Assembly: GCF_040253635.1 (NCBI RefSeq)
Contig: NZ_JBEJGX010000003.1
Coordinates: 5,233,501-5,297,500, forward strand
Length of the DNA stretch: 64,000 nt
Direction of reading: 5' to 3'
Source of the DNA: Streptomyces sp. Edi2
Lineage (GTDB): Bacteria > Actinomycetota > Actinomycetes > Streptomycetales > Streptomycetaceae
The position numbers and the translations under genes were made by a program. Positions 4,717 to 13,983 of this stretch are shown in pieces (positions within the stretch are counted from its first letter, which is position 1; each line of letters starts with the position of its first letter). A model generated the notes under the pieces. It was not told the origin of the DNA and did not search any database. It worked only from the letters and a program-made list of their open reading frames with translations.

Positions 4717-6468
4717 TCAGGCCGGCAGGGAGTGGTGGGGCCAGCGGGCGCGGGCCTGTTCGCGGGAGCGCATCGTCGCCAGGGTGAGGAGTCCGCGGTG
4801 GCCGTCCCTGCCGAGGAGGCCAGGGAGCGCGGGCAGCGGGGCGAGGGCTGCGATGTCGTCCAGGACGAGGGTGAGTGGTGGGTCGAGCCGACCGTCAGAT
4901 GACCGTTCGGCCATGCGGCGGCCGTGCTCGACCACGTGCGAGAGGAGTGCGGTGAGCAAGGGCATCGCACCCGGGTCGGTACGCGGATCCTCGATGGGGT
5001 CGCCTACCACGTAAAGCGTTCCCCCCTCATCGATAAATGATTCGAGGAGGGCCGAATCCGTTCGAAGTGGATTGCAGGCGTCCCGGATATGGATGGAGGA
5101 GAGGGAGGTCAGCGCCCGTCCCACCAACTGCTGGGCGGCTTCTCGGCGTTCGGGGTGGGCGGTGAGCACCGACTCCAGCTCGCCGGCCTGGCCTGCGGAG
5201 GCCTTGGCGCTGGTGCGCAGGATGCGTACGGGTTCCTGGGCGGCGCCGGTGGCGTGCGCCCAGCGGTGCAGCTGGCGGAACGGGCGGCCGTCCACCGCGG
5301 CGGCGTGCAGCCAGCAGCGCAGCAGGGTCTGGGCGGCGTCCGCGACGGCCGAGTCCAGTGCCCCGGCGGGCCGTACGGGGGCCAGCAGGGCCGTGGCGCG
5401 GGTGGTGGCGGTGGCGAGGTCCGTACAGCCGGCGGTTGGTGACCAGCGCAGCCGGGCCGGGGTGTCGAGGCGGTGCGTGGGATCGTAGGTCAGCAGCGGA
5501 CCGAGCTTGGCGCGGGTGTCTTTGGTGTCGGACCAGAGGGTGGGGTCCGTCGTGGCGACGATCAGGGGGCCCGGGGCGGCGGCCGCGGTGGTGAGGGACG
5601 CCGCGAGGGCGACGGCGCGGTCGGTGGCGAACTGGAGGCGGGGGAGGGCGGGTTCGGTGCGCGGGCCGGTGCCGGGGTCGGTCGTATCGGCGCTCGGGAG
5701 GTACGGGGCGGTCGGGGGAGCGGTGCGTTGCTCGGGGACGGGGCCGGTGGCTGTGGCCGCGGTGTCGAGGGGAGGCGGGGGCGACGGCGTGACGGGTGCG
5801 GCCGGGACGGACGGACCGGTCGAACCAGCCGCATCAGGCGGACCGGTCGGCGCGTGCTCGCTGTGCGACGGGGGCTGTGTGGTGGTGCGGGCCATCCCGC
5901 GGACCTCCGCGCTCGCGCTGCTGGTGTCCGGTGCCTTCCCGGCGTACTGCGTCCCCGCGGCCTGCTGTGCGTCCCCTCCTGCCCGCTCCGCGCTCCGTTC
6001 CGTCGCGCCGTCGCCCTGCGCCGTCTCCCCGGCATACCGGGCCTCCCGGACCTCCCTGGCCTTCGCCCGCCGCGCCGCCCGTACGGCGCGATAGCGGGTG
6101 ACGGTCCCCAGCGTGAAGATCGTCAGGACCAGCAGCACCATCAGCTCGCCGATGAGGATGCCCCAGAACAGGCCGTAGCCGGAGAGCTGGTCCTTGGGGG
6201 TGTCGGGCCAGGCGGCGGCCATGTCGTGGGGCGCCGAGACCAGATGCCGCAGCGCCATCGGCGTACTGGGGTAGCTGACGCCGTCGGGCCAGGCGCCGTG
6301 GGTGAACAGGCCGGCCAGGCCGGTCGCGGTCCACACCAGCAGGGTCAGGCCCAGCAGGAAGGCGAGCAGTCCGACCAGCAGGGAGTCGGGGATGCCGCGT
6401 CCCCGGCCACGGGGGGCGCGGTGGTAGTCCCGGTCGGTGCCTCGTTCGTCGTCGTATCCGCGCGTCAC
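4717..6468 (-). CDS. cmdA: VirD4/TraG-like membrane protein of the Cmd cluster
   Basis: 583-aa protein with two N-terminal membrane helices (about residues 28-55 and 98-122), a Pro/Ala-rich linker (about 150-270), and a C-terminal half resembling type IV coupling proteins: a YDPTH...RWSP strand block and a Walker B-like LTLVLDDIAALAPLP followed by GRDGHRGLLTLATMRSREQARARW. No P-loop is visible where Walker A should be, and the protein stops soon after the RARW segment, where coupling proteins usually continue. GTG 6468 overlaps the stop of the VirB4-like gene (GTGA), so translation is coupled; an upstream in-frame ATG at 6498 is less likely. The symbol rests on remembered similarity to S. coelicolor cmdABCDEF (SCO4126-4131). 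Confidence 0.75.
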   Translation of the reverse strand: MTRGYDDERGTDRDYHRAPRGRGRGIPDSLLVGLLAFLLGLTLLVWTATGLAGLFTHGAWPDGVSYPSTPMALRHLVSAPHDMAAAWPDTPKDQLSGYGLFWGILIGELMVLLVLTIFTLGTVTRYRAVRAARRAKAREVREARYAGETAQGDGATERSAERAGGDAQQAAGTQYAGKAPDTSSASAEVRGMARTTTQPPSHSEHAPTGPPDAAGSTGPSVPAAPVTPSPPPPLDTAATATGPVPEQRTAPPTAPYLPSADTTDPGTGPRTEPALPRLQFATDRAVALAASLTTAAAAPGPLIVATTDPTLWSDTKDTRAKLGPLLTYDPTHRLDTPARLRWSPTAGCTDLATATTRATALLAPVRPAGALDSAVADAAQTLLRCWLHAAAVDGRPFRQLHRWAHATGAAQEPVRILRTSAKASAGQAGELESVLTAHPERREAAQQLVGRALTSLSSIHIRDACNPLRTDSALLESFIDEGGTLYVVGDPIEDPRTDPGAMPLLTALLSHVVEHGRRMAERSSDGRLDPPLTLVLDDIAALAPLPALPGLLGRDGHRGLLTLATMRSREQARARWPHHSLPA

Positions 6469-7913
6469 GCCACCGTCTCGCTCGACTCGTCTCTCCACTG
6501 CCGCTCCATCGCCATGGCTTCGGCGCGCGCCTCGGCCTCGGCGTCCGCGGCCGCCTGGAGGGCGCGCGCCTCATCCGTGGGCATGGCGGACGCCTCGGAC
6601 ATCGCGGAGGCCTCGGTCATCGCCCGGTCGGTGTAGACGAGGGGGCGTTCGGCCTCGGTGATGAGGTGTTTGACGACCTGGACATTGCCGTTGACGTCCC
6701 AGACCGCGATGCCGGGGGTCAGGGTCGGGATGATCTCGACGGCCCAGCGTGGCAGGCCGAGCACGCGCCCCGTGGCCCGTGCCTCGTCGGCCTTCTGGGC
6801 GTAGATGGTGCGGGTCGAGGCCATTTTGAGGATCGCCGCGGCCTCCCGGGCGGCGGCGCCGTCGACCACATCGCTGAGGTGGTGGACGACGGCCACGAAC
6901 GACAGGCCGAGCCGCCGGCCGAACTTCAGCAGTCGCTGGAAGAGCTGGGCGACGAAGGGCGAGTTGATGATGTGCCAGGCCTCTTCCACCAGGAAGATGC
7001 GCTTCTTGCGGTCGGGGCGGATCCAGGTGTGTTCCAGCCAGACGCCGACGATCGCCATCAGGATCGGCATCGCGATGGAGTTGCGGTCGATGTGTGAGAG
7101 GTCGAAGACGATCAGCGGTGCGTCGAGGTCGATGCCCGCCGAGGTCGGACCGTCGAACATCCCGCGCAGGTCACCGTCGACGAGCCGGTCGAGGACCAGC
7201 GCCACGTCCAGGCCCCAGGCCCGGACGTCGTCTATGTCGACATTCATCGCCTCGGCCGACTCGGCCTCCGGGTGCCGCAGCTGCTCGACGATGTCGGTCA
7301 GGACGGGCTGGCGGTGGGTGATGGTGTCGGTGACGTAGGCGTGCGCGACCTTGAGGGCGAAGCCGGAGCGTTCGTCCAGGCCGTGGCCCATCGCGACCTC
7401 GATGATCGTGCGCAGCAGGGCCAGCTGGCCGGTGGTGGTGATCGACGGGTCGAGGGGGTTGAGGCGGATGCCGCCGTTGAGGGCGGCGGTCGGGTCCAGG
7501 CGGATGGGGGTTATCCCCAGCTCCTGGGCGATGAGGTTCCACTCGCCGACGCCGTCCTCGCCCTGGGCGTCGAGCACCACGACCTGGCGGTCACGGAACC
7601 TCAACTGCCGCAGGACGTAGGTCTTCTCCAGCGCGGACTTGCCGTTGCCGGACTCGCCGAGGACCAGCCAGTGCGGGGCCGGGAGCTGCTGCCCGTACAG
7701 CTGGAAGGGGTCGTAGATGTATCCCTTGCCGCTGTAGACCTCACGGCCGATGATCACGCCGGAGTCGCCGAGGCCGGGGGCCGCGGTGGGCAGATAGACC
7801 GCCTGTGCCTGGCCGGTGGAGGTGCGTACGGGCAGCCGGGTCGTCTCCACCTTCCCGAACAGGAAGCTGGTGAACGCGTCGGTGAGCGCTCCGAGCGGAT
7901 CGAGCATGGCCAT
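6465..7913 (-). CDS. cmdB: VirB4/TraE-like ATPase of the Cmd cluster
   Basis: 482-aa cytoplasmic or peripheral ATPase of the VirB4 type that energises type IV secretion machines. Walker A GESGNGKSA at about residues 86-94, Walker B IFLVEEAWHI at about 306-315, and the following SFVAVVHHLSDVV segment are all intact. The N-terminus has VirB4-like GREVYSGKGYIYDPF. ATG 7913 (GGGAGG about 10 nt upstream) is used; the frame is open upstream but overlaps the neighbouring gene. The C-terminus is Ala/Glu-rich. It is the only gene of the cluster with a complete nucleotide-binding site, so it probably powers the complex. Confidence 0.85.
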   Translation of the reverse strand: MAMLDPLGALTDAFTSFLFGKVETTRLPVRTSTGQAQAVYLPTAAPGLGDSGVIIGREVYSGKGYIYDPFQLYGQQLPAPHWLVLGESGNGKSALEKTYVLRQLRFRDRQVVVLDAQGEDGVGEWNLIAQELGITPIRLDPTAALNGGIRLNPLDPSITTTGQLALLRTIIEVAMGHGLDERSGFALKVAHAYVTDTITHRQPVLTDIVEQLRHPEAESAEAMNVDIDDVRAWGLDVALVLDRLVDGDLRGMFDGPTSAGIDLDAPLIVFDLSHIDRNSIAMPILMAIVGVWLEHTWIRPDRKKRIFLVEEAWHIINSPFVAQLFQRLLKFGRRLGLSFVAVVHHLSDVVDGAAAREAAAILKMASTRTIYAQKADEARATGRVLGLPRWAVEIIPTLTPGIAVWDVNGNVQVVKHLITEAERPLVYTDRAMTEASAMSEASAMPTDEARALQAAADAEAEARAEAMAMERQWRDESSETVA

Positions 7914-7936
7914 GACGTACGCGCCTCCCAGCGGCT

Positions 7937-9499
7937 TTAGCGGCGGATTCCGGTCGCGAACGGCAGGGTGTTGACGAACGCCCGGTGGTGCTCGCGGTCG
8001 CACCACTCCAGCTTGAGGTAGGACTTGCCGGCCGAGGCGCGGATGGTGCGCTTGTCGCGGGCGAGCGCTTCGGGCGACCGGGAGGAGACCGTGAGGTAGC
8101 CGACGAGGTTGACGCCGGCGGCGCCGGAGGCCAGGTCCTCGCCCCGCTGGTCGACGCGGCCGTGGTGGGCGACGTCCCGCGGGTCGACGACGCGGTTCAT
8201 CTTGGCGGCGCGGCTGGCCTCGGCGTCGTCGTTCGTCTTCTCCGTGAGCATCCGCTCGATGGCGATCTCGGTGGGCTCCAGGTCCATGCAGACCGCGACC
8301 GTACGGATCACGTCCGGGGTGTGCACCAGGAGGGGCGCGAGGAAGTTGACGCCCACCGGGGTCAGCGGCCACTCCTTGACCCAGGCGGTGGCGTGGCACC
8401 ACGGCGCGCGGGTGGTCGACTCCCGCGTCTTGGCCTGCAGATACGTCGGCTCCATCGCGTCCAGCTCGGCCGGCCAGGTGTTGCGCTTGCTCATCGCCTG
8501 GATGTGGTCGATGGGGTGGTCGGGGTCGTACATGGAGTGCACGAGGGAGGCGAGGCGGGCCTGCCCGAGGGGCTGGCGGACGCGGATGTCGGCCTCGGCG
8601 AGCCGGGCGCAGATATCGGTCAGCTCACGGGCCATGACGACGGCGAGGCCGGCGTCGCGGTCGAGCTTCTTGCGCAGCAGCCCGCCCCGGTGCATATGGG
8701 CGGCGCGCGCCATGGTGTGTGCCTCGGCGGCCAGTTCGCGGGTGTAGTGCATACAGGCGACGAGGTAGGCGCGGTGCTGCTCGGAGGAGGTGGAGACCAT
8801 CGACTGGAGCTGGTCGTAGGAGTCCTGCAGCCAGTCGGGGGAGTTCCTGTCGCCGCGCTGGGCGACGTCCTTGGCGTGGGCGTCCGGGTCGGCCGGCAGC
8901 GTCCGGGCCAGCATCTGCAGCCGGGTCACGAAGCCGTCGCCGTTGGCCACATGCTTGAGCAGCGTCCCGAAGCGGTCGACCAGCGCCTCCTGGTCCTCGC
9001 TGTCGCGCAGGCCGACGCCCGGCCCCTCGATCTCGATGGCCGCCGTCACCGTCTTGCGGTCGGCGTGCAGCAGCACCGCGATCTCGTCCGGGCCGAACGG
9101 GGCGGAGAGCCAGTTGATCCGGCCGATGCCGGGCGGCGGGCCGATCTCGATCTCCCGGCCGTCCAGCCGGACGCCCGCCTCGGCGGCGCCGGAGCGGTAG
9201 GTGGCGCCGCGGCGGACCGTACGGCGGAAGCTGCGCCGGATCTCGAACCACTTGTAGAACGTACGGCCCTTGTACGGCACGTAGACGAGGGCGAGCGCCA
9301 GCACCGGGAAGCCGGTGAGGGACACGATCCGCAGCGGCAGCATGGGCACCAGCAGCCCGCACATCATGCCGAGGAACGCCCCCGCGATGATCAGCGCGAT
9401 CTCACCGGTCTCGCGGTTCTTGCCGACGATCGCGTTGGGCCGGGCGCGGCCGATCAGGTATGTGCGACGTGGCGCGATCGGGTGGGACTGCGTGCTCAA
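7937..9499 (-). CDS. cmdC: SCO6880-type membrane protein of the Cmd cluster
   Basis: 520-aa protein with two adjacent N-terminal membrane helices (about 33-52 and 58-75) and a large soluble domain. The helical pair followed by a VirB4-N-like domain recalls VirB3 or PrgI-type subunits fused to the amino part of VirB4; the motor domain itself is in the next gene. It begins with TTG at 9499, overlapping the upstream stop (TTGA), and is supported by a near-perfect Shine-Dalgarno AGGAGGTGAGG ending 4 nt before it; there is no better start nearby. Confidence 0.72.
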   Translation of the reverse strand: MSTQSHPIAPRRTYLIGRARPNAIVGKNRETGEIALIIAGAFLGMMCGLLVPMLPLRIVSLTGFPVLALALVYVPYKGRTFYKWFEIRRSFRRTVRRGATYRSGAAEAGVRLDGREIEIGPPPGIGRINWLSAPFGPDEIAVLLHADRKTVTAAIEIEGPGVGLRDSEDQEALVDRFGTLLKHVANGDGFVTRLQMLARTLPADPDAHAKDVAQRGDRNSPDWLQDSYDQLQSMVSTSSEQHRAYLVACMHYTRELAAEAHTMARAAHMHRGGLLRKKLDRDAGLAVVMARELTDICARLAEADIRVRQPLGQARLASLVHSMYDPDHPIDHIQAMSKRNTWPAELDAMEPTYLQAKTRESTTRAPWCHATAWVKEWPLTPVGVNFLAPLLVHTPDVIRTVAVCMDLEPTEIAIERMLTEKTNDDAEASRAAKMNRVVDPRDVAHHGRVDQRGEDLASGAAGVNLVGYLTVSSRSPEALARDKRTIRASAGKSYLKLEWCDREHHRAFVNTLPFATGIRR

Positions 9500-10818
9500 C
9501 GCCCCTCACCTCCTGCTGATTTGCCGGTGCGGGAGCTGCTGCCCGGGCCGGGGTTCGTACGGGGGGCGGGGGTGGCGGGGGCCGAGGAGCGGCCGCCGCC
9601 GGTGCGGGAGCTGTGCGCGGCGACACCGCCGGCCACCGCGTCGGCCGGCCGGGACTGGCCGCCCTGCGCGCCCTGTGGCTGCCCGCCGCCGTCCCCGCCC
9701 GACCGGCGGGAGCTGTGGGTCTTGATGCCCTGGGACACCAGCGCGGCGGGCGAGGAGATCATCGCGGCGGCCTGGCTGCCGTCCGTGGCCCGGCCCTTGT
9801 TCGTACGGGCCGAGACCATCTCGTCGCCGAAGCCGGGGACGAAGCGGTAGATCACCGCACTGGCGAAGATGGCGAGGACGATGATCGCGAGGCCGGAGAC
9901 GACTGCGGAGAAGGCGTTCGGGCCCTTGTCGTGGGAGAGCGCACCGGCGATGCCGAGCACGATCACGATGACCGGCTTCACCATGATCACCGCGATCATG
10001 ATGCCCGCCCAGCGGCGCACATGCCCCCACATGTTCTTGTCGACGAGCCCGGCGTAGACGACGGTGCCGAGCAGCGCCCCGACGTAGAGCAGCGCGGCCC
10101 GGATCACCAGCTCCAGCCACAGCACACCGGCGGCGAGCACGGAGACCAGCGACACCACGATCAGCATGATCGGGCCGCCGCCGATGTCCGTGCCCTTCGT
10201 GAGCGCCTGCGAGAACGCTCCGAAGAAGGTGTCGGTCTGCGCCCCCGTTCCCTTCGCGATGATCTCGGTGACGCCGTCGGTCGCCGAGACGATCGTGTAC
10301 AGGATCAGCGGGGTGAACGCGGAGGCGAGCACCGTCAGCCAGAGGAACCCGACGGCTTCACTGATCGCCTCCGTGAGCCGCACCCCGCGCACCGCGCGCT
10401 TGGCGACCGCCAGGAGCCACAGGACGAGGGTGAGGATGGTGGAGGCGGCGAAGACGACCGCGTACTGGCGGAGGAACGCGGTGTTGGTGAAGTCCACCTG
10501 GGAGGTGGCCTTCACCGCGTCGGAGAGCTTGGTGACGATCCAGGCGGCGGCTTTGGCGCAGCCCTTGGCGAGGGAGTCGAGGGGGTCGAGGGGGTTGTTG
10601 TCGGTGAGGCCGCCGGGGGACTTGGGGGCGCCGGAGCCGGGTTTGTCGCCGGATTGGCAGTAGTTCTTGGCGGGGCCGACGATCAGGTCGCAGTTGTCCT
10701 TGGGAGACGGGCTGGGATTGGGTGCCGCCAGGACCCGTGTGGCCAGCAGGATCACAGTGGTCTGTACGGACGCCAGCGCAGCGGTGACGGTGAGGGCACG
10801 CCTTCGGTTACCGCGCAT
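9496..10818 (-). CDS. cmdD: Polytopic VirB6/TrbL-like membrane protein of the Cmd cluster
   Basis: 440-aa protein with a cleavable-looking signal (basic MRGNRRR, hydrophobic stretch, LAA at about 32), a Cys-containing extracellular segment, then five or six membrane helices between about residues 95 and 330. The tail of about 100 residues is Gly/Ser/Pro-rich and likely disordered. The topology is that of VirB6/TrbL channel proteins; direct sequence kinship cannot be claimed from reading alone. ATG 10818 lies inside the end of the upstream gene (11-bp overlap), consistent with one operon. Confidence 0.75.
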   Translation of the reverse strand: MRGNRRRALTVTAALASVQTTVILLATRVLAAPNPSPSPKDNCDLIVGPAKNYCQSGDKPGSGAPKSPGGLTDNNPLDPLDSLAKGCAKAAAWIVTKLSDAVKATSQVDFTNTAFLRQYAVVFAASTILTLVLWLLAVAKRAVRGVRLTEAISEAVGFLWLTVLASAFTPLILYTIVSATDGVTEIIAKGTGAQTDTFFGAFSQALTKGTDIGGGPIMLIVVSLVSVLAAGVLWLELVIRAALLYVGALLGTVVYAGLVDKNMWGHVRRWAGIMIAVIMVKPVIVIVLGIAGALSHDKGPNAFSAVVSGLAIIVLAIFASAVIYRFVPGFGDEMVSARTNKGRATDGSQAAAMISSPAALVSQGIKTHSSRRSGGDGGGQPQGAQGGQSRPADAVAGGVAAHSSRTGGGRSSAPATPAPRTNPGPGSSSRTGKSAGGEGR

Positions 10819-11659
10819 AGGTGAACCCTCCGTACTGCTCGACTGCCTTGGCGATCTGGTCGGCACCGGACGTCTTGTTGTCCCCGTTGACCGGGGCGGG
10901 GCCGTCCTGCTGGGAGAAGCCCTCGACCTTCCAGTCGCCACTTGCCCACGTCAGCTGGAGCCGCATGGTGAACCAGTCACTTGTCACCGGAGTGGTCGAC
11001 TTGGCGCCGGCCGTACCGAACAGGCCCGTGCACCACACTTCGAGGTTCGCGGTGTCGCCCGTGCGTTTCACGAGCTTGGTGCCGACGGGAACCGTGCGTG
11101 AGATGTAGGTCATGCCCTGAGCCGCGTTGCCGTTCGCGTCGAGCCCGAGCTTCTTGAGGAAGGCGGTCGAGTACGCGGCGTCGAGTTTGCCCTGCATCTC
11201 GTCGACCTTGGCGGGGACGAAGGCCTGCTTGACGATCGAGTGGCGTTCGTTGGGCTTCAGGATGTTGGCGGAAACCAACGCCACCGCATAATTAGCCGCC
11301 GCCGACTGCGCCCCCTGCTCCGTCTTGGCGAAGCCCGACGCGATTCCCCCGTTCTTGCCGGTGACCGGCTTGGTGCCGGTGGGGGCGGTGGGCTGGGCCT
11401 GGTCGGTGTCCTTGGCGGAGTCGCCGGTGGGGGTTTCGCTGTTGCCGCTGCCGCCGCGGTTGGCGAAGGCGATGGCCGCGAGCAGCAGGACGATCACGCC
11501 GACGATGGTGACGAGGTTGCGGCTGGACATGCCGGCGCGAGGCCGTCGTCCCGAGCCGTAGAGGTCACTGTCGCTGCCGGGAAGTCTGGTCCGTGTCTGG
11601 CCCGTCTCGGGACCGCGGTGGCCGTCGCCGCCGTAGCCGCCGTCGTCACTGAGACTCAT
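10808..11659 (-). CDS. cmdE: Single-pass membrane protein of the Cmd cluster
   Basis: 283-aa protein: cytoplasmic N-terminus of about 45 residues, one membrane helix (NLVTIVGVIVLLLAAIAFAN, about 47-66), a Ser/Thr/Gly-rich linker, then an extracellular domain of about 170 residues. This bitopic layout matches VirB8/TcpC-type conjugation subunits, which have NTF2-like outer domains; the fold assignment is inference. It is separated by 490 bp from the small gene upstream but overlaps the gene downstream. Confidence 0.75.
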   Translation of the reverse strand: MSLSDDGGYGGDGHRGPETGQTRTRLPGSDSDLYGSGRRPRAGMSSRNLVTIVGVIVLLLAAIAFANRGGSGNSETPTGDSAKDTDQAQPTAPTGTKPVTGKNGGIASGFAKTEQGAQSAAANYAVALVSANILKPNERHSIVKQAFVPAKVDEMQGKLDAAYSTAFLKKLGLDANGNAAQGMTYISRTVPVGTKLVKRTGDTANLEVWCTGLFGTAGAKSTTPVTSDWFTMRLQLTWASGDWKVEGFSQQDGPAPVNGDNKTSGADQIAKAVEQYGGFTYAR

Positions 11660-12151
11660 CGCGCCTGTGCCCCCTCTGCCGCCGTCGCCGTGCGTGCCGT
11701 AGTTGTGCCGCCCTCATATGACCGTAGCCGCGCGGGCGCCAGCTCGGGTGCAGCGATACGAGTACATCTCACCGTGACGGGTCCTCAGATGCGGTACGGC
11801 AGCGGCGAATGGGGGACTCTGGGTCATTTGTGCTCATCGCTCGCTCCGCGGTTGCCGTCGCCTTCTTGTGCCTTCTTGCCCCCGGGTCCACCTGTCCCCG
11901 CGCGGCGGCCCGCCCAATCGGTCCGCTGGTGGCGGGGGTGACCGGGGCGCGGGAGGCGGGCCCGTCGGGCCGGGCGTGAGGGGGCGTCAGCATGGGGCCT
12001 CGGCAGGGAGGTGGGGCCGGTGGGAGCGAGTGGGGGCACGGGGCGGCGGAGAGATGGCGGGCGGGGGCGCAGGGGGAGCGGCCCGGGGACGGGGCGGGGA
12101 AGGGGTGTGCCCCGCTCGGCCGGCCCCGGCAGGCCCTCGGGTGTGGCCGCG
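11660..12151. other. 492-bp gap inside the Cmd cluster, no convincing gene
   Basis: The region between the two-TM gene and the bitopic gene. The minus strand is strongly pyrimidine-rich (C runs broken by T) from about 11980 to 12150. Frames are open by GC bias only; no Shine-Dalgarno-preceded ORF with plausible composition was found. A promoter for the five downstream genes could lie near 11660-11760, but no clear -10/-35 pair stands out. Confidence 0.6.
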
Positions 12152-12460
12152 CTAGACCGCCATGCCGTAGACGATGGTGAACAGCGTCCCCAGGGAGCCG
12201 ATGATGAAGACGCCGGTCAGGCCGGCCACGATCAGGCCCTTGCCCTGCTCGGCGCTGAAGGTGTCGCGCAGCGCGGTGGCGCCGATGCGCTGTTTGGCGG
12301 CGCCCCAGATCGCGATGCCGAGGCAGAGCAGGATCGCCACCGCCATGACCACTTCGACCATCACGCGGGCCTCGTTGCCCAGGCTCCCGAACGGTCCCCA
12401 GTCCGGGGCGATTCCGCCGATGATGGTGGTGATGTCGCCTTTTTCGGCCGCAATGAACAT
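12152..12460 (-). CDS. cmdF: Small two-TM protein of the Cmd cluster
   Basis: 102-aa protein with two membrane helices (about residues 33-55 and 75-100) joined by a short basic loop. Size and topology resemble VirB2/TrbC-type pilin subunits or a VirB3-like component, but it has no recognisable signal peptide. ATG 12460 is used. First gene of the minus-strand cluster, directly divergent (across about 0.5 kb) from the cell-wall hydrolase gene. Confidence 0.75.
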   Translation of the reverse strand: MFIAAEKGDITTIIGGIAPDWGPFGSLGNEARVMVEVVMAVAILLCLGIAIWGAAKQRIGATALRDTFSAEQGKGLIVAGLTGVFIIGSLGTLFTIVYGMAV

Positions 12461-12978
12461 GTGAACTCACCGCCCCTTGGTGGGTAGTTGTGTGCCCGTG
12501 CCGGCGCGGCGCGGGTCGCTCTCTATCTTCGCTGACGAACGGAGCGTCAGCTGTCGTCTTGGCGGCTTTCTTTGACGGATCCCGTGGGAGTGGCGTGGAC
12601 GTGTGGGTGCATGCCGTCCATTGGACCGGCCGGTCTCACTGTGTGTATCACGGGGCCCTACCCTGAGCAATGATCATCGGAAGAGGTAATGGCCGGTCCG
12701 GCGCGCCGTTGCGGCCGGGGCCGTTCGGGTGGTGGCGAGGCCCGGGTGCGGCGGATCGCGGTCCGGGTGCGGCGGATGCCGTCCGGTCCCGGGGCTCGTG
12801 TGCAGTGTCGCTCATCCGGCGGTGCTCCGGGCGTCGCGATGAGGGGCATCTCACACCGGGTCAGGAGCGCCCCTGCGCCGTGTCGTGCGCCGTCGTGTCG
12901 CACCGGGGGCGGCGCAACGCGCGCGGAGCGACCGGAAAAAGGCAGTGAACCGGGGCTGAATGGGGGAGGGTTGGGGGC
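12461..12978. other. 518-bp divergent regulatory region
   Basis: Lies between the start of the small membrane gene and the transglycosylase gene, so it must hold promoters for both directions. A dyad GCTGACG (12531-12537) / CGTCAGC (12545-12551) with a 7-nt centre is the best operator candidate. No coding region with start and Shine-Dalgarno was found; ORFs seen on either strand have arginine/proline-biased shadow composition. Confidence 0.5.
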
Positions 12979-13983
12979 GTGCGGAAATTCTGGGTGGCCG
13001 GTGGGCTCGGGACAGGGCTGGTGCTCTGCTTGCTCGGGCTGCTTGTGATCGGTACGTACACGGTGGCGGCCCGGCTGGCCGGGGCCGGCGGGCGGGCGCT
13101 CGGGCTGGCGAAGGGCGCGGTGCCGGGCGAGTACCAGCCCCTGGTGCAGAAGTGGGGGACGCTCTGTCCGGCGATAAGCCCCGCGCTGCTGGCGGCCCAG
13201 CTCTACCAGGAGAGCGGGTGGAACCCTCGGGCGCAGAGCCCGGCGGCCGCCCAGGGCATGGCGCAGTTCATCCCGGGGACGTGGCAGACGCACGGCGTCG
13301 ACGGGAACGGCGACGGCAAGAAGGACGTGTGGGACCCGCAGGACGCGATTGCGTCGGCGGCCTCGTACGACTGCGAGCTGGCCGGCTATGTGAAGAGCGC
13401 GCCGGGCAACGCCACGCACAACATGCTCGCGGCGTACAACGCGGGGGCGTACCGCGTGATCCAGTACAACGGGGTACCGCCGTACCGGGAGACCCAGAAC
13501 TACGTGAAGACGATCACGACGCTCGCGAAGAGCTTCGAGGCGCCGTCCGGTCCGGTGGCGCCGTCGAAGCAGGCCGCGGGGGCGATCTACTTCGCGCAGG
13601 AGAAGCTCGGCACGCGCTACCTGTGGGGTGGTACGGGAACGGCGGCGCAGGGCGGGCGGTTCGACTGCTCGGGGCTGACCCAGGCGGCGTACCGTTCCGT
13701 GGGCATCGAGCTGCCCCGGGTGGCGAACGACCAGTGGAACGCCGGGCCGCATCCGAAGCGGGACGAGCTGCTGCCGGGTGACCTGGTGTTCTTCGCCTAC
13801 AACCTGAAGGACCCGCGGTCCATCCACCATGTGGGGCTCTATGTGGGGGGTGGGTACATGATCAATGCGCCGTACACCGGGGCCGTGATCCGGTTCGACA
13901 AGATCGATTCGCCGGACTACATCGGGGCCACCCGCGTCACGTCCGATGGCGCAAAAGCACTGCCCGGTACGAACGCTGCGTGA
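12979..13983 (+). CDS. Bifunctional lytic transglycosylase / NlpC-P60 peptidase
   Basis: 334-aa exported peptidoglycan hydrolase. One N-terminal membrane helix (about 8-32), then an SLT domain with catalytic Glu78 in LYQESGW, the AQGMAQFIPGTW block (91-102) and AAYNAG (151-156), plus an Asp-rich loop DGNGDGKKD that looks calcium-binding. An NlpC/P60 domain follows with Cys230 (FDCSGLT) and a His in SIHHVG (283-284). Such fusions are the VirB1-like wall-opening components of Gram-positive type IV systems (for example TcpG-like proteins), so its divergent position beside the VirB4 cluster is meaningful. GTG start preceded by GGGAGGG. Confidence 0.88.
   Translation: MRKFWVAGGLGTGLVLCLLGLLVIGTYTVAARLAGAGGRALGLAKGAVPGEYQPLVQKWGTLCPAISPALLAAQLYQESGWNPRAQSPAAAQGMAQFIPGTWQTHGVDGNGDGKKDVWDPQDAIASAASYDCELAGYVKSAPGNATHNMLAAYNAGAYRVIQYNGVPPYRETQNYVKTITTLAKSFEAPSGPVAPSKQAAGAIYFAQEKLGTRYLWGGTGTAAQGGRFDCSGLTQAAYRSVGIELPRVANDQWNAGPHPKRDELLPGDLVFFAYNLKDPRSIHHVGLYVGGGYMINAPYTGAVIRFDKIDSPDYIGATRVTSDGAKALPGTNAA

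Follow-up and report, generated by a model that had tools for sequence, protein, structure and literature searches.

A chromosomal type IV secretion-like operon of Streptomyces with a coupling-protein relative that lacks the Walker A motif

Introduction

The cmdABCDEF operon of Streptomyces and the divergent gene tgdA raise the question of how genes resembling a type IV secretion system (T4SS) come to stand in a chromosome, and whether the coupling protein among them can still work. The locus studied here occupies positions 4,717 to 13,983 of a 64,000-nucleotide stretch of Streptomyces sp. Edi2 (the window; contig NZ_JBEJGX010000003.1, positions 5,233,501 to 5,297,500). The operon itself and the idea of a type IV-like channel are already known: cmdABCDEF has been published, and similarity to VirB4 was noted and such a channel suggested in 2009 (PMC2782261). 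Compared through that description, S. coelicolor cmdABCDEF with tgdA (SCO4126-4132) is the same operon with the same divergent hydrolase, and its published effect on differentiation agrees with what a preliminary description of the window had stated. In the open literature searched, two accounts dealt with this operon as such (PMC2782261, PMC6585502), and their available text makes no mention of loss of the P-loop or of the gene of CmdA, a VirB8 fold in CmdE, the split of VirB4 or a possible relation of SCO5677 to coupling proteins, all of which are added here.

Decay of CmdA, the coupling-protein relative

The preliminary description had likened the product of cmdA to VirD4, and the features of this gene are as follows.

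4717-6498, minus strand: CmdA, relative of VirD4/TraG-type coupling proteins, with two N-terminal hydrophobic segments and without Walker A
5605-5628, minus strand: stretch of cmdA (CmdA residues 291-298) opposite the Walker A of its relatives, with no GK in the alignment with intact relatives
4849-4869, minus strand: Walker B region of CmdA, LVLDDIA, where relatives from outside the chromosomal group have DE

CmdA scored 14.8 bits against Pfam TraG-D_C, under the cut-off of 22, and it aligned with CmdA relatives from outside the chromosomal group, all three of which that were scanned passed both T4SS-DNA_transf and TraG-D_C. The relatedness to VirD4 thus stood, whereas the reading as a working ATPase fell with the P-loop. 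Walker A was intact in all 19 aligned outside relatives, which were judged by context or similarity to be of plasmid, integrative and conjugative element (ICE) or accessory type. Screening with a hidden Markov model and trimmed sequences found CmdA in each of 67 Streptomyces loci (60 mainly from long contigs, six others and the window) and Walker A in none of them; the stretch itself is missing in two (L113, L158). CmdA lies in two frames in four Streptomyces loci and is short in one; sequencing error is possible in all five.

Outside Streptomyces the decay takes further forms. Of the 37 genomes examined from the rest of the order, one (G583, GPARSGKA) retained Walker A, 12 had a full-length CmdA without it, and in six CmdA was shortened to ~150 residues comprising the membrane part (3/3 genomes of genus g116 and 3/3 of g119). 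CmdA was not found downstream of cmdB in the remaining 18, namely 9/9 genomes of family f44, which we take to be Catenulisporaceae, 8/8 of g128 and 1/1 of g129; searches of whole genomes turned up no CmdA-like gene in seven of the eight g128 and two of the nine f44 genomes. A CmdA without a P-loop is therefore not acceptable as a working coupling ATPase and, judged from its sequence, CmdA is a dead coupling protein, a predicted pseudo-ATPase; this decay is new here.

To place the change of CmdA among that of the other subunits, we compared identities. Median identity to the window across chromosomal loci (n = 66, but 64 for CmdF and 35 for TgdA) was 56.1% for CmdA, 90.3% for CmdB, 88.8% for CmdC, 68.9% for CmdD, 53.3% for CmdE, 93.1% for CmdF, the most conserved subunit of this line, and 73.2% for TgdA, whereas pairwise medians among eight accessory loci were 75.7, 78.0, 74.3, 61.0, 55.2 and 65.6% for CmdA to CmdF, indicating that the fast change of CmdA relative to CmdB was confined to the chromosomal line. 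The ratio of nonsynonymous to synonymous substitution rates (dN/dS), from 60 random pairs out of 226 (25 pairs for TgdA), was 0.064 for CmdB, 0.105 for CmdC, 0.037 for CmdF and 0.164 for TgdA.

The other subunits as T4SS parts

All seven genes of the preliminary description, six on the minus strand and a divergent one on the plus strand, are present, and those besides cmdA are listed here.

6465-7913, minus strand: CmdB, VirB4 ATPase domain (AAA_10, PDB 4ag5, hhalign)
7635-7658, minus strand: CmdB Walker A, GESGNGKS, the same in 104/104 loci of the order
7937-9499, minus strand: CmdC, hydrophobic N-terminus and C-terminal match to the VirB4 N-terminus (NF042935, hhalign)
9496-10818, minus strand: CmdD, multi-spanning membrane protein (hydrophobic segments; weak TrbL match of a homologue)
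10808-11659, minus strand: CmdE, VirB8-like bitopic protein
12152-12460, minus strand: CmdF, 102 amino acids, two hydrophobic helices; no Pfam, NCBIfam or PDB match
12979-13983, plus strand: TgdA, membrane-anchored lytic transglycosylase with NlpC/P60 endopeptidase (SLT and NLPC_P60 over cut-off)

The mechanical open reading frames of CmdB (to 8402) and CmdD (to 10941) are probably overlong, and the starts at 7913 and 10818, which agree with the adjoining genes, were preferred.

CmdB proved VirB4-like, as had been described: it matched AAA_10 with 47.1 bits (cut-off 27.5), the VirB4-like PDB entry 4ag5 with an E-value of 2.9e-6 and, by hhalign, VirB4 residues 235-661 with an E-value of 8e-58. 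Its Walker A is identical in all 67 Streptomyces and 37 other loci of the order. CmdC belongs to NCBIfam NF042935 (SCO6880_fam, 189.5 bits), and its C-terminal part matched the VirB4 N-terminus in hhalign (probability 99.2, E 1.6e-18), supporting the view that CmdC and CmdB are a split VirB4 in which the C-terminal part of CmdC supplies the VirB4 N-terminus. That half of the proposed VirB3/VirB4-N fusion held up; for the putative VirB3 half the CmdC N-terminus offers a hydrophobic segment in a VirB3/PrgI-like position. A VirB6/TrbL-like nature of CmdD is weakly indicated by a homologue (L084) that scored 20.3 bits against TrbL, under the cut-off of 25.9. CmdE behaved as a VirB8-like subunit in the test applied, in line with the earlier reading, and DUF8175 (PF26526) is listed for it in precomputed annotation. 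CmdD, CmdE and CmdF gave no Pfam or NCBIfam match at E up to 1, and sequence-profile searches of the PDB returned nothing useful for CmdC, CmdD, CmdE or CmdF. The pilin-like reading of CmdF thus found no backing in Pfam, NCBIfam or PDB; the protein is hydrophobic, as a VirB2-like subunit might be, and profile searches of the PDB found no match for it. TgdA passed the Pfam cut-offs for SLT and NLPC_P60 and is, as described, a VirB1-like wall hydrolase; tgdA was divergent in all 53 loci (of 86) in which TgdA and CmdF both fell inside the fetched stretch.

Distribution and origin of the locus

Near-universal occurrence, as opposed to sporadic, was borne out by a survey with CmdC, which had a match in 198 of 199 Streptomyces genomes (the sole miss being a draft of 1010 contigs), in 61/61 genomes of a family sample (17 genera) and in all 60 genomes sampled from the order, including 15 that are not Streptomyces. 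This near-universal presence in genus, family and order indicates that the cmd locus is not there by chance and is chromosomally fixed. In a class sample CmdC had a match in 104 of 344 genomes, of which 37 were Streptomyces, one (G205) matched at 71% identity and the rest mostly at 23-32%.

A separate cluster of CmdE-D-C-B homologues was found in family f16, taken to be Frankiaceae: with a Frankia query, CmdC matched at 83% identity or more in 31 of 35 f16 genomes, two of these 31 having it as fragments. No VirD4-like gene was found within the stretches read around 11 Frankia-type loci. The Walker A of CmdB in these chromosomal loci (L069-L077, L122, L123) reads GAVGSRKS in nine and GSVGSRKS in two, with Arg replacing the usual Gly before Lys-Ser. 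In a tree of CmdB and CmdC, all 32 chromosomal loci (G205 plus 31 from the order) formed one group and the 11 Frankia loci another; with midpoint rooting, the plasmid-type locus L107 was the closest outgroup to the former.

L107 is a close relative of the S. alboflavus plasmid pMDJK44.2 (CmdB 80.6% identical), which has a typed MOBF relaxase. The conjugation operon of this plasmid carries a homologous set in the order TgdA-F-E-D-C-B-A, like the cmd locus; unlike it, the plasmid has an intact coupling ATPase CmdA, a hydrolase gene that runs in the same direction as the others and a DUF6238 gene between B and A. The tra genes of SLP2 are another example of such Streptomyces conjugation operons. 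A gene for a large DUF6531 protein, presumably RHS-like, follows the coupling-protein gene on pMDJK44.2 (L199:18579-24089).

Published genetics

The genetic data come from the available text of two reports. When any one of cmdB to cmdF was deleted, colonies were light grey with seemingly fewer spores, whereas a cmdA deletion was like wild type, with no apparent effect on sporulation (PMC2782261); the dispensability of cmdA alone would be explained by a dead CmdA coupler. Deletion of cmdB or of cmdA-F delayed aerial growth and led to branched aerial hyphae and short spore chains, and actinorhodin was overproduced in cmdB, cmdD, cmdE and cmdA-F deletions (PMC2782261). A membrane location of CmdB was also published, and two CmdB lysine mutants failed to complement, for which the authors gave destabilised protein as an alternative (PMC2782261). 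The genes named as hits of a transposon screen are cmdBCDEF, tgdA and SCO5677, and cmdA is not one of them (PMC6585502).

The gene at the SCO5677 position

In S. coelicolor, SCO5676 resembles GabT, and a semialdehyde dehydrogenase is encoded by SCO5679 (PMC8998196, available text). In the genome of the window, the gene at G000:C3:6588789-6591005 stands between gabT and a PucR-aldehyde dehydrogenase pair. Its product of 738 residues contains two hydrophobic segments as well as both Walker motifs, A (GPAGSGKT) and B (LVLDE), 243 residues apart. Eight matching PLSDB records were found, six from Streptomyces and two distant (35-38% identity). The distant two are annotated as TraM-recognition or T4SS DNA-binding proteins; the Saccharothrix one passes TraG-D_C and TrwB_AAD_bind, the Nocardiopsis one TrwB_AAD_bind alone. 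From these relatives and motifs, the SCO5677-position gene appears to encode a CmdA-related, VirD4-like ATPase. Profile searches of the PDB with the SCO5677-type set gave nothing useful, returning only IcmO/DotL at E 0.26.

Three small linear Streptomyces plasmids carry SCO5677-type relatives (L249, L251, L252; NZ_CP109436, CP108176, NZ_CP134204), two of the three without a P-loop. The plasmids are 24-28 kb, and no Cmd-type channel genes are annotated in the flanks read, which were the only parts covered.

Discussion

The explanation we favour, which we consider about equally likely to be right or wrong, is that a conjugation-type channel was captured chromosomally, that its coupler CmdA is dead or lost and that docking, if there is any, is performed in trans by the ATPase at the SCO5677 position. 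A plasmid-type conjugation channel would have been captured in an ancestor of the Streptomyces order and retained in the chromosome as an organ of aerial growth and sporulation. CmdC and CmdB as the split VirB4, together with CmdD, CmdE, CmdF and TgdA, would assemble into one envelope-spanning machine, which ATP hydrolysis by CmdB would power. CmdA, the original coupling ATPase, would have lost its nucleotide-binding loop, been reduced to the membrane domain in two genera and disappeared from the operon elsewhere, and the docking of any substrate would have passed in trans to the VirD4-like ATPase.

Several observations weigh against this explanation. The motor-derived domain of CmdA is under purifying selection (dN/dS 0.236), which speaks against a plain pseudogene and makes some non-ATPase, structural role likely where CmdA is retained; such a role is probably kept by the surviving CmdA proteins. 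The variability of CmdE equals that of CmdA in chromosomal and accessory sets alike, in seven of the nine f44 genomes another VirD4-like gene, the CmdA-like one found outside the operon, adjoins a second CmdC-like gene, and the node joining the chromosomal loci had a support of 0.43 after midpoint rooting. As to the candidate coupler, its equation with SCO5677 rests on synteny, the place beside gabT; the protein itself lies under every Pfam cut-off; and its profile match to intact CmdA spans only 21 columns at the P-loop (probability 76.6; FtsK control 5.2). Among five aligned Streptomyces plasmid copies, the P-loop is missing from three, and Walker B has the DE form in none. The 400 kb covered in one genome without CmdA (G556) lay off the region of this gene, none of the eight anchor genes having a clear orthologue there.

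We propose that either CmdA has been replaced in trans by the SCO5677-position gene or the machine is now coupler-free. In the latter case, which we regard as possible but tentative, the operon would encode a CmdB-driven pseudopilus, a wall-opening device or a two-step exporter of proteins already beyond the membrane, and the SCO5677 phenotype would be otherwise caused. A coupler-free machine would fit a CmdA that is dead or missing, with no CmdA-like gene found in nine of the 18 genomes without an operon copy, as well as the Frankia-type loci, which in the stretches read are also without a VirD4-like gene. TgdA shares the cmd phenotype (PMC6585502), and T4SS without VirD4 are reviewed in such roles (ComB, Ptl, Bartonella Trw; PMC12857230, available text). 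However, SCO5677 has the same published phenotype (PMC6585502), the gene at its position appears to belong to a VirD4-like family, and the VirD4-less systems reported in that text are diderm. A more far-reaching form of the trans-coupling explanation, in which SCO5677 would be a swappable coupler linking the channel to developmental cargo and linear plasmids with their own SCO5677-type protein would ride the host Cmd channel for transfer, we consider doubtful. The 2009 suggestion that the complex moves chromosomal DNA in spore septation draws on the anucleate spores of cmdB and cmdA-F deletions (8% and 6%, compared with 0.1% in wild type) and on the RecA/FtsK-like motor predicted in CmdB (PMC2782261). 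It is improbable in our view: the operon's DNA-docking ATPase is either dead or gone, a search of the whole genome for TrwC, the only relaxase family searched, found none, FtsK_SpoIIIE has 21 other matches in this genome, and the earlier defects, branching and late aerial growth, suggest an effect on the envelope.

It is very improbable that CmdA is a working coupling protein of an ordinary secretion or conjugation system. Its homology to VirD4-type proteins and the motif retained in G583 speak for such a role, but they stand against the missing Walker A in all 67 Streptomyces loci, the lack of an apparent sporulation phenotype on loss of cmdA and the unchanged transfer of an SLP2-derived plasmid on cmd deletion (PMC2782261). 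That the locus is a defective integrative element in decay is hardly credible given the low dN/dS of CmdB, CmdC, CmdF and TgdA, the near-universal occurrence and the published phenotypes; ICE-finding tools may nevertheless misfile the cmd core locus as just such an element.

With trans coupling or without it, the developmental operon of 2009 becomes a testable machine, of which one can ask what is docked and by which ATPase. Such a monoderm T4SS would serve the development of its own cell, either lacking a functional coupling protein in its operon or being coupled in trans. According to the available text of two reviews, Ptl, ComB, Brucella VirB and Bartonella Trw likewise combine a T4SS core with the lack of a coupling protein (PMC12857230, PMC12102498); their hosts are diderm and the coupling gene is absent, whereas most of the genomes examined keep it in cmd as a pseudo-ATPase, and there is a candidate for its replacement in trans. 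The T4SS of Patescibacteria are monoderm-type, mostly without relaxase and with the coupling gene mostly away from virB4, but they belong to another phylum and are tied to epibiotic growth instead of development (PMC12102498).

Surroundings of the locus

The preliminary description had seen neither relaxase nor integrase nearby. The TrwC search given above agrees with this, and the closest Phage_integrase match lies ~250 kb from cmd (serine integrases were not searched); the window contains no tRNA. Eight of ten genes scanned near cmd had Pfam matches: GNAT, TetR, PAP2, FAD-binding/BBE, PhoU-like, ABC ATPase, phosphate-type binding protein and NlpC/P60. Positions 1-2042, ~2.7 kb from cmdA, hold the end of a 23S-5S rRNA operon, which accounts for the low G+C content at the start of the window. 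The same genome holds a second, distant SCO6880-type TgdA-D-C-B cluster (G000:C3:6826990-6828330; L010, L087), and no CmdA-like gene was found in the stretch read around it. Within the cmd operon itself, a GC-rich gap of ~490 bp (11660-12151) separates cmdF from cmdE, and its length varies among relatives.

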